The notes under the pieces: model-generated
Told to the model about the DNA's origin: nothing
The model's input: only the letters and a program-made list of their open reading frames with translations
Databases searched by the model: none
Shown: positions 2,848-30,935 of the stretch, in pieces
Position numbering within the stretch: position 1 is the stretch's first letter
How the letters are laid out: every line of letters begins with the position of its first letter
Source of the DNA: Planctomycetia bacterium
GTDB taxonomy: Bacteria > Planctomycetota > Planctomycetia > Pirellulales > JALHLM01
Assembly (NCBI GenBank): GCA_034440135.1
Contig: JAWXBP010000171.1
Coordinates: forward strand, 1-33,082
Direction of reading: 5' to 3'
Length of the DNA stretch: 33,082 nucleotides
Program-made: the position numbers and the translations under genes

Positions 2848-5313
2848 TTACTTCCCGCCGCTCAACCGTTGCGCCGTCTTCACCAGTTCAATGTACTCGG
2901 CGCGATATCCTTCGGCGTCGCGGGACATGCCCGGCTGGGCCATTTCCAATACCGCGCCGTAGTTCATCGTGCCGGCGTATTGCGAGTGCCGCAGCAGCAT
3001 GCCGAAGGCGGCGACCGACGAGGCGAATTGGAAGTCGGGGCTCGATTGGCCGATTTTCTGTTCGCTGTCGGCGACCGGCGTCTTGATCAGTTTGCTCGTG
3101 TCGCCGTCCGGCTGCTTGTAGCGGAGCTTGAGCATCAGTAGATCGCTCGATTGCTTCGCCGCTTCCGTGGGGCCGCCGACGGACTGGTATTCAAGTTCGT
3201 CCACCGAGGGCGTGTTGACCGGTTCGCCGGCCGGGATGACTTCGTACAGCGCGGTGACGGTATGACCCGCGCCGATCTCGCCGGCGTCTTTCTTGTCGTC
3301 GTTGAAATCTTCCTTGGCGAGGATGCGATTCTCATAGCCGATCAGCCGATATGCGGCCGTTTTCGCCGGGTTGAACTCCAGTTGCAGCTTGACGTCCTTG
3401 GCGATTGTCAGCAGCGTGCCGGAAAGTTGCTCGACCAGCACCTTGCGGGCTTCGCGTTCGGTGTCGATGTAGGCGTAGTTGCCGTTGCCCTTGTCGGAGA
3501 GCTTTTCCAGCGTGGCGTCTTTGAAGTTGCCCATGCCGAAGCCGAGGACCGAAAGGAACACGCCGGACTTGGCTTTGCCTTCGATCAGGCTGACGAGTTG
3601 GCTTTCATCCGTGACGCCGACGTTGAAATCGCCGTCGGTGCAGAGGATCACACGATTCGCTCCGCCCTGGACAAAGTTCTCGACGGCGACCTGGTAGGCT
3701 TGCTCGATGCCGCCGGCGCCGTTGGTGCTGCCGCCAGCTTCGAGCTGATCGAGCGCGGCGAGGATCGTTTCCTTTTGATTGCCCGGCGTGCTGGCGAGCA
3801 CCTGCCCCGAACTGCCGGCGTAAACGACCATCGCGACGCGGTCGTTTTCCGACAGTTGCTCGGTCAGCAGCCGAAGGCCCGTCTTCACGAGTTGCAACTT
3901 GTTGGCGTCCTGCATCGAACCGGAGACGTCGATCAGGAAGACGAGATTCGTCGCCGGGCGCTGGTCGACGGCCACTTCGCGTCCCTTGATGCCAATCCGC
4001 ACCAGCCGATGTTTCGCTTCCCATGGGCACTGCGCCACTTCGACATGCACCGCGAACGGGTCGTCGCCAGTTGGCGGGGCGTAGTCGTAGCTGAAGTAGT
4101 TCAGCATTTCCTCGATCCGCACCGCGCCCGGTGGCGGCAAGGTTTCCTGCGTGAGAAACCGCCGCACATTGGCGTAGGAGGCGGTGTCGACGTCAATCGA
4201 GAACGTGGAAAGCGGTTCCTGCGCGACTTGCTTGAACGGGTTCTCGATGATCTGGTCGTAGGCTTCGGTGTTGGACTCACCGTCTTGAACTTCAACGAAA
4301 TCGGCCCCCAGCGACATCGACGGCGACTTCGCTTCGCTCGACAGTTTCGCCAGCGACTCTTCGGAATAATCGTCCGCGCTCAGTGGCGTCGACAAACGAA
4401 AGTAGGTCGCCGGGCCACTGGCTGTCGCCGGCGAGGCGCCTCGTTGACGATAAGAGCTATCGCCACCTTGAGCGTATCCACGGCCATCATAAAGACCGTC
4501 GCTGGCTCCACCGGCTGGAGGGCCGTAAGGGCTGCCACCTCTCGAACCACCGGCGTAGCCCCCTTGGCCGCCGCCAGCTTGCGCAGGCTGCGAAGCGGGT
4601 TTGTTCGCAGCGACGGAGGCCAGGTCGGAGAGCTGCTTCTCACCTTCACCGCTTTCGGACATCGCTTCGTCGATGGTCGCCGCCTTGTCTTCGCCAGCAC
4701 CTTGCTGCGGCGCGGTGGCATACACCGGTTTCGATACTGTGTAATTCTGTTCCTTTGAGCGAACCTCCCAAACCGGTTTTGCAACGGTGTCGGCGCTGTT
4801 GCCTTCTTGCGTTTCATAGTGAGCGACAGAGCCCTGTTCGTATTCCATACCCATGTCAGTCGGCGTTTCCCCCATGGACGCAAGGACCGGTGGATTAATC
4901 GTCGTCGAGTCTGGGCGAGCAGACGTACCAACTGCGACCTGGTTCGATTGAATCGAGGGCAACACCAGCGCGGTCACCACGCCGCCGATGCCGACGGCGA
5001 CGCCGAGTTCCAGCATGTGCCGCAGTGACCAGAAGCGATGTGCCGGTGCGCTGGTGGCTGCGACCGTCGCGGGTGCGCCGTTGACGGATGGCTCCTGTGC
5101 CAGGATCGCGGCGCGGCGCGCTGCGTCGAGCGCCGGGCCTTGCTCATCGGCGAACGAGGCGCTCAACATGCCGGTCACGCGGCGAATCTCCGCCAGCGCT
5201 TTCGCGGCTTCGGGGGAGTCAGCGAGCTCGCGCTCCAGTTCAGTGCGCGCAGACTCATCGAGCTCGCCAAGAGCGTAGTCGATCAGACGCGGGTCGTCGG
5301 GATCTAGCGACAT
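2848..5313 (-). CDS. VWA-domain (YfbK-like) protein with anti-sigma-like N-terminus
   Basis: An 821-residue protein. Residues 1-60 (DPRLIDYALGELDESAR onward) look like the short helical N-terminus of planctomycete anti-sigma proteins but lack an HxxxCxxC zinc motif. A membrane helix follows at about 101-119, then a long low-complexity linker that is Gly-rich at 245-285. From about 358 (NPFKQVAQEPLSTFSIDVDT) the protein matches YfbK-type N-terminal sequence, then a von Willebrand A domain with the MIDAS motif DVSGS at 462-466, then a DUF3520-like tail. It probably sits in the membrane with the VWA domain on the outer face, and could hold the ECF sigma factor encoded 266 bases upstream (inference). 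GAGGAG precedes the ATG. The gap to the sigma gene is filled with repeats. Confidence 0.88.
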   Translation of the reverse strand: MSLDPDDPRLIDYALGELDESARTELERELADSPEAAKALAEIRRVTGMLSASFADEQGPALDAARRAAILAQEPSVNGAPATVAATSAPAHRFWSLRHMLELGVAVGIGGVVTALVLPSIQSNQVAVGTSARPDSTTINPPVLASMGETPTDMGMEYEQGSVAHYETQEGNSADTVAKPVWEVRSKEQNYTVSKPVYATAPQQGAGEDKAATIDEAMSESGEGEKQLSDLASVAANKPASQPAQAGGGQGGYAGGSRGGSPYGPPAGGASDGLYDGRGYAQGGDSSYRQRGASPATASGPATYFRLSTPLSADDYSEESLAKLSSEAKSPSMSLGADFVEVQDGESNTEAYDQIIENPFKQVAQEPLSTFSIDVDTASYANVRRFLTQETLPPPGAVRIEEMLNYFSYDYAPPTGDDPFAVHVEVAQCPWEAKHRLVRIGIKGREVAVDQRPATNLVFLIDVSGSMQDANKLQLVKTGLRLLTEQLSENDRVAMVVYAGSSGQVLASTPGNQKETILAALDQLEAGGSTNGAGGIEQAYQVAVENFVQGGANRVILCTDGDFNVGVTDESQLVSLIEGKAKSGVFLSVLGFGMGNFKDATLEKLSDKGNGNYAYIDTEREARKVLVEQLSGTLLTIAKDVKLQLEFNPAKTAAYRLIGYENRILAKEDFNDDKKDAGEIGAGHTVTALYEVIPAGEPVNTPSVDELEYQSVGGPTEAAKQSSDLLMLKLRYKQPDGDTSKLIKTPVADSEQKIGQSSPDFQFASSVAAFGMLLRHSQYAGTMNYGAVLEMAQPGMSRDAEGYRAEYIELVKTAQRLSGGK

Positions 5314-5380
5314 TTTTCAGAAACTCCTCACATGAGGAAATGAATGCTGGGTAACCACGAAAGTCACGAACGGCACTGTT

Positions 5381-5514
5381 GTGGCACGGTCTCTGTTGTG
5401 GCACGGTCGGGAGACCTCTGTTGTGGCACGGTCTCCCGACCGTGCCACCGGCCCGACCGAAGGTCTCCATGCGTCGCAAACCCGCCACGTGGCACGGTCG
5501 GGAGACCGTGCCAC
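5381..5514. repeat. Cluster of GTGGCACGGTC palindromic repeats (REP-like)
   Basis: Four copies of a motif starting GTGGCACGGTC lie here. Two are truncated (5381-5393 and 5398-5416). Two are complete 26-base palindromes (5423-5448 and 5489-5514) in opposite orientation, so with their flanking TT/AA they form a perfect 28-base inverted repeat around a 40-base spacer. Spacer sequence such as AGGTCTCC is partly shared with the copy near 9.03 kb, which shows this is a dispersed composite element. Frames crossing it give spurious peptides such as VARSGDRAT. It sits in the gap between the ECF sigma gene and the VWA gene. Confidence 0.92.
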
Positions 5515-5579
5515 AACATGCGTCTGCAATCTCTCAGCGTCTCCGCGCCTCTGCGTTTCAATTGGATTCACCGTCTCAC

Positions 5580-7943: not shown

Positions 7944-8924
7944 GTGTCGCGGCGATTACAAGGACTTGGGGTGCTCGGCGTCCTCGTGGCGGCGGCCGCC
8001 TGGGTGTACTCGAACTACGAGTTCTCGGGAACTCTTGATCAATTCACGGTCCGCCGGCGCGGCGCGGCCGGACCGGACTTGGGACCCGCGCCCCCGGTGG
8101 CGCGGTCCAGCAACACCATCCGCGTGGCGACTTTCAATATCCAGGTGTTCGGCGAAAGCAAACTCGAGCACCAGGCCGCGGTGGCGGCGCTGGTCGACAT
8201 TATGCGGCGGTTCGACGTCGTCGCCGTGCAAGAGATTCGCGCGCAAAGCGTCGACCAAATCCCCCGTTTCCTGGAACAAGTCAACGCTGGCGGGGGTCAC
8301 TATCACTACGTGCTTGGGCCGCGGCTGGGACGTTCCAACAGCAAGGAACAATACGCCTTCATCTACAACCGCGCCAGCATCGAGGTCGATCCCAGTTCCG
8401 TCTACACAATCGATGACCCCGATGACCTGCTGCATCGCGAACCTTTGGTGGCCAGCTTTCGCGTTCGCGGGCCCAGCGCGCAGGAAGCGTTCACGTTCAC
8501 GTTGATCAACATTCATGTCGACCCGGATGAAGTCGCGCGCGAGGTCAATGTCCTGGACGATGTCTACCGCGCGGTGCAACGTGACGGCCGAGGCGAAGAT
8601 GATGTGATTTTGCTCGGCGACTTGAACGCCGACGTCCGTCATTTGGGGCAACTTGGCGAGATCTCGCAGCTCACGCCCGTCGTGACGGGCAAGACGACTA
8701 CCAACACGCTCCGCAATGCGCAGTTGGACAACATCCTGTTTATGGCGCATGCCACGACGGAATTCACCGGGCGCGCCGGCGTCGTCGATCTAATCCGGGA
8801 TCTCAATCTCACCACGGCCCAAGCCTCGGCGGTCTCCGATCATTGCCCCGTCTACGCCGAGTTCTCAATCCAAGAAGGCGGCGCGGACGGCGCCATTGCG
8901 GGGCGGGAAGTGGAGAGAAAGTAG
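7944..8924 (+). CDS. Endonuclease/exonuclease/phosphatase (DNase I-like) family protein
   Basis: A 326-residue member of the EEP superfamily, metal-dependent phosphodiesterases acting on nucleic acids or phospholipids. The GTG start at 7944 was chosen because an excellent ribosome site (AAGGAGGGGTGAC) precedes it and a membrane anchor or signal (LGVLGVLVAAAAWVYSNY) follows. Family motifs in order: RVATFNIQVFG (~60), VVAVQEIRA with the metal-binding Glu (~95), YAFIYNR, LINIHVD, LLGDLNAD (~224) and SDHCPVYAEF with the catalytic Asp-His (~298). The order and spacing suggest DNase I-like rather than inositol phosphatase. The enzyme is probably outside the cytoplasmic membrane. The TAG stop lies in the first bases of a dispersed repeat. 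Confidence 0.88.
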   Translation: MSRRLQGLGVLGVLVAAAAWVYSNYEFSGTLDQFTVRRRGAAGPDLGPAPPVARSSNTIRVATFNIQVFGESKLEHQAAVAALVDIMRRFDVVAVQEIRAQSVDQIPRFLEQVNAGGGHYHYVLGPRLGRSNSKEQYAFIYNRASIEVDPSSVYTIDDPDDLLHREPLVASFRVRGPSAQEAFTFTLINIHVDPDEVAREVNVLDDVYRAVQRDGRGEDDVILLGDLNADVRHLGQLGEISQLTPVVTGKTTTNTLRNAQLDNILFMAHATTEFTGRAGVVDLIRDLNLTTAQASAVSDHCPVYAEFSIQEGGADGAIAGREVERK

Positions 8925-9158
8925 GTCAGGCTTTCCAGCTGACGGAAGACGACTTGGCGTCAGGTAGCGTGTCGGACCGGCAATGCGCGAGTGCCACGAG
9001 TCAGGCTGGAAAGTCTGATGATGTTGTGGCACGGTCTCCCGACCGTGCCACCGGGCCGACGCAGGTCTCCCGTTCCGGATGTCACCACGCTCAGCCGTGG
9101 CACGGTCGGGAGTCCACATGTAAAAGCGTAGCACGTCAGGCTGGAAAGCCGGACCTAC
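8921..9158. repeat. Composite palindromic repeat filling a convergent gene gap
   Basis: The outer arms are an imperfect inverted repeat: GTAGGTCAGGCTTTCCAG at 8921-8938 and CTGGAAAGCCGGACCTAC at 9141-9158. A third, internal copy of CAGGCTGGAAAG lies near 9002. Inside is a complete GTGGCACGGTC palindrome (9026-9051), a roughly 45-base spacer containing AGGTCTCC, and a half palindrome (9097-9112). This core matches the repeat cluster at 5.4 kb. The element fills the space between the two convergent genes: its left end contains the TAG stop of the plus gene, and its right end is 3 bases from the zwf stop. Confidence 0.88.
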
Positions 9159-27165: not shown

Positions 27166-27316
27166 CTAAGTGCACACGCAGAAGAAATAATGCGATGGGT
27201 GCCACTGGCGGCTTGTCCGCCAGTGCGGTTTTGATCTTGTTAGCAAGCCCAACTCCAGCACTGGCGGACAAGCCGCCAGTGGCGCCCCGCATCAAACTTT
27301 ATGCGGGTGTACTTAG
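27166..27316. mobile_element. MITE-like palindromic element, 151 bp
   Basis: About 60 bases at each end form an imperfect inverted repeat: CTAAGTGCACACGC at the left pairs with GCGGGTGTACTTAG at the right (12 of 14), and the inner arms GCCACTGGCGGCTTGTCCGC pair perfectly with their complement. The centre is about 30 bases and there is no reading frame. The tips can be read as TA-AGTGCAC...GTGTACT-TA, compatible with the TA duplication of IS630/Tc1-type elements (inference). I recall the inner CACTGGCGGACAAGCC motif as frequent in planctomycete genomes; this was not checked. Confidence 0.75.
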
Positions 27317-27483
27317 CCCGTAGCGCTGGCGAGGGAGAGTGGACAACGGCGATCGTTTGACGCGAACGCCAGGCCGACCTTCCAGTTCGCCAAACCGCAT
27401 TCGATCGTGCTGATACGGTTTGCCTGGCGTATGCGGTTGGTCTATCGCCCGGCGCCAACTCCCCCTCGCTGGCGCTACGGGCT
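27315..27483. mobile_element. Second palindromic element abutting the first, 169 bp
   Basis: AGCCCGTAGCGC (27315-27326) is repeated inverted at 27472-27483. The arms continue imperfectly inward (GGCGAGGGAGAGTGG against CCAACTCCCCCTCGC, then CGCCAGGC against GCCTGGCG), so nearly the whole element can fold back. It starts within the last two bases of the preceding element. Its right arm overlaps the last codons and the TAG stop of the DUF900 hydrolase gene. Confidence 0.72.
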
Positions 27484-29514
27484 CGTGTGGGCGTCGTTCG
27501 TCTTCGGTCCGAACAGATGCTTGAAGATCCAATACGCGGAGGGTCCGCTCAACTTGACCGGCTCCAGTTCGCGTTCCGCCGGCGGCAGGTTCTTCTCGAA
27601 CAGTATGCGCATATCCTTCAACAGCGGCAGGCAGTCGCCGTAATACGAATGGCCGAGGAGCGTGGTGTCGATGCCCGACGCGTCGACGGTATCCGCGCCC
27701 GGGACGACCAGGATGCCGCCGCTGGAATCTCCTGCGCGCCAGGCGTCGTTGAACGTGTTCGAAGCCACGAGAGCCCAATCGGTGTTGGAGCAATACAAAG
27801 TCGTGCGCTGCGAATGGGCCGCCATGGCGGGCGCGATTTGCTCGCGAAACACGTCGGCGTCGATATCCGGCGCCGCCAACACAATCTGGTCGAACACGCG
27901 GCCGCGATCTCCCATCTCCGCGATCGCGCGCCCCACGGCGTCCGTGCCCATGCTGTGGGCGATGATGTGGATGCGGTCGGCGTCGAGTTTTTCCGACAGC
28001 TCCAGCAGGAACTGCTTCACGTAGCGATAGCTGTATTGGATTTCATTGCGATCCCCAAAGTAATGCCGGAGCGCGCCCCGCGACGGCCAACTGTAGAACA
28101 GCGGCGCGCCGGGGAACTTGAGATCGTAATGAATCTGCGCCGTGCGCCGCGCCGCCTGATCGAAACTGGAATTGTACCCGTGGACGAACACAAAGCAGTC
28201 ACGTCGATCTCGTGGCAACCCGTCAAGCACTTTACGTACCGACTGGAAGAAGGCCTCGTCCTCCAGTCGCTCGGTACGACGCAACAAGACGTGGCGGTCC
28301 TCGTCGTCGGGACCTAAGAGCGGTTGCTCGACCACGCCGACGGAGTGCGTCGGCGGAATCGAGACGTCGCAATAGCCGTAGTAGATCTTGCCTTCCTGGT
28401 TCCGCAGGGGACCGAAATCCGCGCCGACGTGTTCGGAAAAGTGAGTGCGCAATGCGTCGTTCCAAGCGGTGACGCTCCCCAAAGCCACGCCGCTCATCGC
28501 CAACACGATCAGCGACGTCGCCCAGCGGCTGCGCGGCGGCGCTTCCGGTTTACGCGTGCGCAAGCGCCAGTAAATCGCCGTCGCCGCGGCCAATAGCAAG
28601 AACGGCATGCCGTACAGGCGGGGCTGCGGGTCCGGCGTTTCGTTGACCAATTGCCGGTTGGTGCCGAAATAGACCCGCACGTCCTTGGGCCGTGCTTCGT
28701 CGCGATCGCGAACCGCCTGCGGTTCCGTCGACCCTCCTTTGCGCGCCTTTGTGGGGACGACGGCCGTCGGTTCAACGATCTCGGCGGGCGGTTGTTCCGT
28801 GGTTTCCGGCGCAAGCGGTTTCCCGCCGCCACCGCCTTTTTGGTCCAGGAAGGACGGCCGCAGCAGCACCGACAACATGGCGGCCGCGGGCTTGCGCAAT
28901 TTCGGCTCGGCAGATTCGACGGCGTCCATCAAAAACGGCACCGCCGCGGCGCCCCAGCGCGTGAATTGAGACTCGGCGGCAGCGCGGACCGACGCGTCGG
29001 TCGAGGCCAGCGCTTCCAGCAGGGCGTTCCAATATGCGTCCGATACTTGTTCAGGCGCAATACTCACGTTTTGCAGCGCCACGATGGCCGCGAATTTGGA
29101 TTCACGATCATTCGCGTCCGCCAATCGCAACAGCACCGAGCTTGTCGCGTCGCCCAGCCAATTTCGCAATTTCAACTGCGCCGCCGCCTGGCGGCGGACG
29201 ATCATCGAGGAATCCGTAAACGCCGCGAACAGAAACTCGCGGCGTTCGTCATCGGATAAAGTCGCCCGCGCGAAATGGCGCGGGATGACCGTATCGCGGC
29301 GCCCTTCGTCGGCCAGCGCGGTGCGCAATTCTTCCAGCGTGACTTGCTCGTCACCGGCCAGCGGATCGTCGGCCAAATAGGTCTTGGCCCAGTCCTCCGT
29401 CGGAGGCGGCGGCAACGAGGGCGGCGGCGCCTCCTGCGCAGACGCTGCACCGGCGACCAGGAACAGTGCCAAGAGCAATTGGCCGAACTGCGATCTCAAA
29501 CACGGTCGTTTCAC
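27475..29514 (-). CDS. HEAT-repeat / DUF900-type alpha/beta hydrolase, membrane-bound
   Basis: A 679-residue exported protein. The GTG start at 29514 begins a signal peptide (SQFGQLLLALFLVAGAASA). Residues ~60-220 are HEAT-like helical repeats (IVRRQAAAQLKLRNWLG, SKFAAIVALQNVS, ASVRAAAESQFTRWGAAAVP). The DUF900 hydrolase domain begins with VRVYFGTNRQL (~279), is interrupted by two membrane helices (about 302-317 and 332-352), then resumes with YYGYCDVSIPPTHSVG, CFVFVHGYNSSFDQAARRTA, FYSWPSRG and the nucleophile elbow AHSMGTD with Ser at residue 521, plus LAAPDIDADVF. The substrate is unknown. The TAG stop lies inside a palindromic repeat. It lies 159 bases downstream of the caspase gene on the same strand. 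Confidence 0.87.
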   Translation of the reverse strand: MKRPCLRSQFGQLLLALFLVAGAASAQEAPPPSLPPPPTEDWAKTYLADDPLAGDEQVTLEELRTALADEGRRDTVIPRHFARATLSDDERREFLFAAFTDSSMIVRRQAAAQLKLRNWLGDATSSVLLRLADANDRESKFAAIVALQNVSIAPEQVSDAYWNALLEALASTDASVRAAAESQFTRWGAAAVPFLMDAVESAEPKLRKPAAAMLSVLLRPSFLDQKGGGGGKPLAPETTEQPPAEIVEPTAVVPTKARKGGSTEPQAVRDRDEARPKDVRVYFGTNRQLVNETPDPQPRLYGMPFLLLAAATAIYWRLRTRKPEAPPRSRWATSLIVLAMSGVALGSVTAWNDALRTHFSEHVGADFGPLRNQEGKIYYGYCDVSIPPTHSVGVVEQPLLGPDDEDRHVLLRRTERLEDEAFFQSVRKVLDGLPRDRRDCFVFVHGYNSSFDQAARRTAQIHYDLKFPGAPLFYSWPSRGALRHYFGDRNEIQYSYRYVKQFLLELSEKLDADRIHIIAHSMGTDAVGRAIAEMGDRGRVFDQIVLAAPDIDADVFREQIAPAMAAHSQRTTLYCSNTDWALVASNTFNDAWRAGDSSGGILVVPGADTVDASGIDTTLLGHSYYGDCLPLLKDMRILFEKNLPPAERELEPVKLSGPSAYWIFKHLFGPKTNDAHTSP

Positions 29515-30840: not shown

Positions 30841-30935
30841 ATTCAGCCCCAACGGGGCGCCAGACAATAGCCAGCGGTGCAAACCGCTGGAACAATGGCC
30901 CGAATAACAATTGTTGAGCCCCAATGGGGCGTCAC
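30841..30935. repeat. GCCCCAACGGGGC palindromic repeat unit
   Basis: Four small palindromes in a row: GCCCCAACGGGGC (30846-30858), CCAGCGGTGCAAACCGCTGG (30871-30890), AACAATTGTT (30906-30915) and GCCCCAATGGGGC (30918-30930). The first and last are direct copies with shared flanks (AGCCCCAAyGGGGCGyCA). I recall the type as widespread in planctomycete genomes. It lies between the patatin-like and caspase genes, ending 12 bases before the caspase ribosome site. Translating it gives the spurious peptide SGAPLGLN. Confidence 0.82.

Follow-up and report, generated by a model that had tools for sequence, protein, structure and literature searches.

The palindromic element at the 3' end of the DUF900 hydrolase gene in the window, by which we mean the whole 33,082-nt stretch of planctomycete DNA that was analysed, is an old copy of a small mobile repeat, able to form a hairpin, that is common among planctomycetes. 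We put the probability at about 0.92 that it is a REPIN, i.e. two inverted REP units with a spacer, that was probably spread by a RAYT transposase and is kept downstream of genes, and that its stop codon was captured by way of a GTAG particular to the lineage.

An earlier note on this DNA, made from the sequence, had placed a palindromic element at 27315-27483, and such an element is present, with its edges 5 nt further out on each side. The arms of the inverted repeat, 27315-27335 (+) and 27463-27483 (-), each match AGCCCGTAGCGCNNGCGAGGG without a mismatch, and the arm sequence, AGCCCGTAGCGC(TG/CA)GCGAGGG, has a chance expectation of 0.03 matches in the window. Because the conserved block begins with ACACT, where a logo of 112 ends taken from the genome has a sharp conservation border, we set the edges at 27310 and 27488, giving an element of 179 nt with near-perfect terminal inverted repeats that falls, by end logo, length and hairpin fold, in the 179-181 nt class of REPINs. 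Its left REP unit (27310-27344, +) was delimited by alignment to the consensus and to the sister species, its right unit (27454-27488, -) reads ACACGAGCCCGTAGCGCCAGCGAGGGGGAGTTGG on the minus strand, and the spacer between them (27345-27453) is partly self-complementary and conserved within the 179 class, as judged from the class consensus and folds. The REP consensus, ACACTAGCCCGTAGCGCCAGCGAGGGAGAG, consists of a short 5' tag, ACACTAG, and an imperfect hairpin, CCC..GC-NNNN-GC..GGG, and in the fold of a single unit the tag is followed by a small hairpin whose waist is mismatched. One strand of the entire window copy folds into a long hairpin, with z-scores against shuffles of -5.7 as DNA and -6.6 as RNA.

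The outermost bases of the left unit read TACTT in place of ACACT, having been altered by the element that abuts it. This adjacency had also been reported correctly; the first element spans approximately 27168-27314 and belongs to a different repeat family, with ends AAGTnCACnCGCA and a core CACTGGCGG..CCGCCAGTG (104 core sites in the same genome, 79 in the sister species). In the sister species the first element is missing from the hydrolase site and the REPIN edge reads ACACTTAGCCCG without interruption, so that the first element was probably inserted later into the edge of the REPIN. Elsewhere, two CACTGGCGG cores lie just upstream of a Y1_Tnp ORF (1378-2022) at 1190-1353 of locus L094 (G000:C285), making this ORF a possible candidate for the RAYT of the first element's family.

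The hydrolase gene occupies 27475-29514 on the minus strand, encodes 679 AA as an ORF (our coding-score caller favours a start at 29478), matches DUF900 (PF05990, E 3.4e-43), an alpha/beta hydrolase, and ends ...TNDAHTSP-stop. As the earlier note proposed, the stop lies in the right arm of the palindrome: the minus strand reads AGC CCG TAG in frame with the ORF 29514-27475, the TAG (27475-27477) belonging to the GTAG that the right REP carries in its 5' hairpin arm. The sister species has an orthologous REPIN at the same site, with the same stop and the same TSP-stop ending, and the hydrolase gene took its REP stop before the two lineages split. Comparison of hydrolase C-termini gives agreement in the sister species and none among more distant homologs, whose tails are of similar length and unrelated in sequence. 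The C-terminal region that includes the REP-encoded tail varies in length and sequence among relatives, and the REP replaces or extends a few residues that vary anyway.

The hydrolase case had been likened to a repeat at 8.9 kb, and the parallel holds in one respect and fails in another. The GTAG of that repeat (8921-8924) does end the gene at 7971-8924, with the TAG of its tag (8922-8924) as the stop; the repeat itself, at 8921-9158, is a classical GTAG-tagged REP doublet (GTAGGTCAGGCTTTCCAGCCTGAC) with a degenerate left copy and 51 sites in the genome, and belongs to a separate family. The window therefore holds two independent stop-providing REP families. Among its other features are repeats of the form GTGGCACGGTC(TCCC/GGGA)GACCGTGCCAC in several inverted copies (5376-5525 and 9019-9115), an inverted repeat, AAGCCCAGGGCAGGCTGTAG.., with 27-nt arms that are 93% complementary around a 10-nt loop (2741-2804), and an Acido-Lenti-1 RNA at 30845-30890 (-), which at 41.8 bits scores above the gathering threshold and is the sole Rfam match over the window.

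Allowing at most two mismatches, we find the REP pattern 240 times in the draft genome (7.3 Mb) and the reversed control pattern twice. In the approximately 0.5 Mb of stretches by which we sampled this genome, chosen mostly around copies, REPs occur as inverted pairs and as solo copies. Across this genome and that of the sister species we count 100 doublets in three length classes, the remainder being solos, and both species have the same peaks of pair length, at 104-105, 148-150 and 179-181. Interior identity inside a length class is 0.56-0.68, compared with 0.27-0.31 after shuffling, and the two arms of one pair carry matching variants, which together indicate that the repeat spreads as a doublet together with its spacer. 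Nearly all elements (68 of 69) lie outside genes; many copies are common to the two species compared, and presence or absence differs at a few sites.

With respect to genes, identified here by a home-made coding-potential caller, the family sits preferentially at 3' ends, as the earlier note had surmised. In the sampled genome 64 genes point their 3' end at a REP edge; 36 of them stop 5-40 nt before the edge, ten stop at the internal GTAG, 14 nt inside the REP, two stop on the edge CTAG (in one case at a degenerate unit), and one reads through. When each element was slid inside its own gap, 33.5 +/- 2.8 facing ends were expected within 40 nt, compared with 47 of 71 observed (0/2000 placements), and close 5' ends were rarer than expected. 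The sister species repeats the 3'-end excess (P 0.002), and random placement of the repeat ends relative to stop codons is thus contradicted. We also considered whether stops just before the hairpin are avoided and rejected this, the relative G015 having gene ends at -7 to -1. The preference for 3' ends agrees with what has been published for REPs, which lie beside the 3' ends of genes where neighbours are in tandem or convergent (PMC3733652).

Whether the repeat donates stops, as had been suggested, has a divided answer: stop provision is recurrent, with ten of the 64 facing genes ending at the GTAG, and a dedicated stop-donor design is unsupported. GTAG in the hairpin arm is a spelling specific to this genus; elsewhere in the order, families have GAAG, GACG or GCAG, and GTAG occurs in four of 279 (1.4%) RAYT-flanking REPs across the phylum. 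In G015, units lacking the TAG hug 3' ends in the same way and no gene ends in the GTAG phase. Moreover, an element at 3937-4115 of locus L082 is absent from the orthologous site in the sister species (L187). There, the two convergent genes close at stops of their own, ...SP(TGA) and ...TDA(TAA), and their counterparts beside the element close with ...SPMSINTSP and ...THTGPDTSP. At another site, with the REPIN in the sister species, ...EHLNEQGQPKK becomes ...EHLNAHTSP. Sites L082 and L078 were compared with their orthologs by eye, automatic alignments being poor, and with two species the repeat-free state of L187 could in principle be a loss. Taken together, the lineage-specific GTAG, the 3'-end hugging of TAG-less units and the repeat-free orthologous site argue that stops are captured opportunistically and not by design. 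Once its own stop has been lost, or cut off by an insertion, a gene would end a few residues later at the GTAG, with ...TSP-stop, because the REP of this genus happens to read GTAG in its 5' arm; here it is the order of REPIN insertion and stop loss that we infer. That REP ends provide TAG stops to flanking ORFs was described by Di Nocera et al. (2013; PMC3733652), and stop supply by a REP is a known habit of such repeats rather than a new kind of thing.

Possibly the sole new aspect is an excess of one phase, which simple tolerance does not explain. In the two species, 14 of 19 independent REP-internal gene ends use the GTAG phase where 37% would be expected from a weak flank preference (P ~0.001), in a test that is post hoc and based on small numbers. 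Such an excess could stem from a target preference, from real use of the stop or from selection that disfavours longer read-through. An alternative that we consider unlikely, albeit the best placed of the rivals, is that selection maintains the repeat as a 3'-end module whose long RNA hairpin ends or protects convergent and tandem transcripts and whose TAG is a built-in stop. The strong placement at 3' ends, the phase excess, the strong RNA hairpin (z -6.6) and the many copies common to both species are all in keeping with this. However, the TAG is not conserved outside the genus, TAG-less copies in G015 are placed alike, mobile DNA also does least harm at 3' ends, and 10-12 copies are located where two genes diverge, between their 5' ends. 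Slightly more doubtful still is a version confined to this genus, in which the REP gained the arm GTAG and the REPIN is now a selected gene-end module, with genes ending preferentially inside the hairpin in one phase, which may determine how ribosomes clear it and, through this, what becomes of the mRNA end.

In relatives the REP is linked to a RAYT transposase. It borders the genes of one clade of Y1_Tnp proteins (FLTWTTYGTWLPGD...NHVHVVV...Y), flanking 9 of 11 loci of this clade in relatives and none of the other Y1_Tnp loci. Scanning genome contigs, we recovered 80 loci of the clade in Pirellulales and other Planctomycetota; a REP lies within 350 nt of 68 of these, on both sides in 61, as against 17 of 516 control windows (Fisher P ~3e-60). 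The sister species (G001, same genus) has an intact RAYT 22 nt from a REP doublet and a broken RAYT copy near a single REP unit. A RAYT of this species is 100% identical to one in a Pirellulales MAG (isolate Bin_18_1_sub), which assigns the window to a Pirellulales planctomycete. The five Y1_Tnp genes of the genome under study were rejected as partners of the hydrolase REP, as they are not flanked by it, and an intact RAYT of the REP-linked clade was not found in this draft (96% complete, 534 contigs).

The RAYT proteins have H83, H85 and Y142 invariant in 41 sequences (HUH motif and tyrosine), match PF01797 in six of seven cases and NCBIfam REP_Tyr_transpos weakly in four of seven, and are predicted with high confidence to fold like IS608 TnpA, ISDra2 and the REP-bound RAYT 4er8, a likeness that emerged by fold search only, as a sequence search of the PDB with the RAYT profile gave no match. 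On the strength of the flanking REPs and of these motif, profile and fold matches, we place the element as the REPIN of a RAYT system. By analogy with known RAYT/IS200-type families, a RAYT (IS200-like HUH/Y1) that recognises the REP hairpin would have spread the REPIN by single-strand transposition; copies persist for the most part between genes, immediately past a gene's 3' end. Among 268 distinct REP units beside transposases across the phylum, two CCC/GGG stem pairs covary (CG to AT, TA or GC) well above shuffles, and the outermost of the three foot pairs has no compensatory excess over them. At two loci of G015 (L166, L170), RAYTs of the same clade are flanked by a diverged REP (TAGCCCGAGGCGCAAGCCGAGG), which suggests that transposase and REP may diverge together.

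The long inverted ends and the interiors conserved by size class are also what an ordinary MITE of a DDE transposon (IS5-like or similar) would have. We nevertheless regard this origin as improbable, since solo ends exist, the same ends flank RAYT genes in relatives, and the flanks contain no target-site duplication, their identity equalling that of a mismatched-pair control at every offset tested (0-8). Finally, that the repeat-borne stop is a coincidence of a single locus, to which one of three arm frames meeting GTAG might lend itself, is refuted by recurrence and has next to no probability left, given that the same phase and TSP-stop ending recur in ten genes here and in five of the sister species (one shared), and that the hydrolase site is conserved between the two.

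These results link a palindrome abundant in planctomycetes with a particular RAYT clade throughout the phylum, and in the sister genome a mobile hairpin can be seen becoming part of gene ends. Since lineages with GTAG can be set against those with GAAG, GACG or GCAG, stop donation by REPs as opposed to mere tolerance is testable by comparison alone. As for planctomycete REPINs, a literature search at title and abstract level found nothing relevant beyond Di Nocera et al. (2013).

A close parallel is with the REPINs of Pseudomonas fluorescens SBW25 (Bertels and Rainey, 2011; PMC3116915), which are likewise extragenic, hairpin-folding doublets of inverted REPs around a spacer, linked to a RAYT and accompanied by singlets that are likely remnants. 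The planctomycete elements differ from these in REP sequence, in host and in a CTAG-type foot instead of GTAG or GTGG, and from the classical Pseudomonas REPIN in that spacers fall into three fixed classes and doublets are longer, up to 181 nt. With the GTAG-tagged REPs (PMC3733652) they share a tag and stem-loop, 3'-end placement, dimers, RAYT flanks and the supply of stops; however, the tag in this genus is CTAG, and the stop TAG lies inside the hairpin arm and not in the tag. The 5' foot in this genome is CTAG (74%) or CCAG (19%), not the unpaired GTAG that characterizes the superfamily, and it varies across the phylum, ATAGTAG being present in G015; hence the family works like GTAG-tagged REPs but is not filed among them. 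Known RAYTs (Nunvar et al., 2010; PMC2817692), including the E. coli RAYT of structure 4er8, have the same HUH/Y1 fold and REPs on both sides, often just past the stop, whereas the planctomycete RAYTs form a divergent clade with ~11% identity to 4er8 in structural alignment. The transposase fold, the hairpin-type ends and the lack of target duplication are also those of the IS200/IS605 elements IS608 and ISDra2, from which the REPIN is set apart by carrying no transposase gene and by having ends that are inverted copies of one unit.
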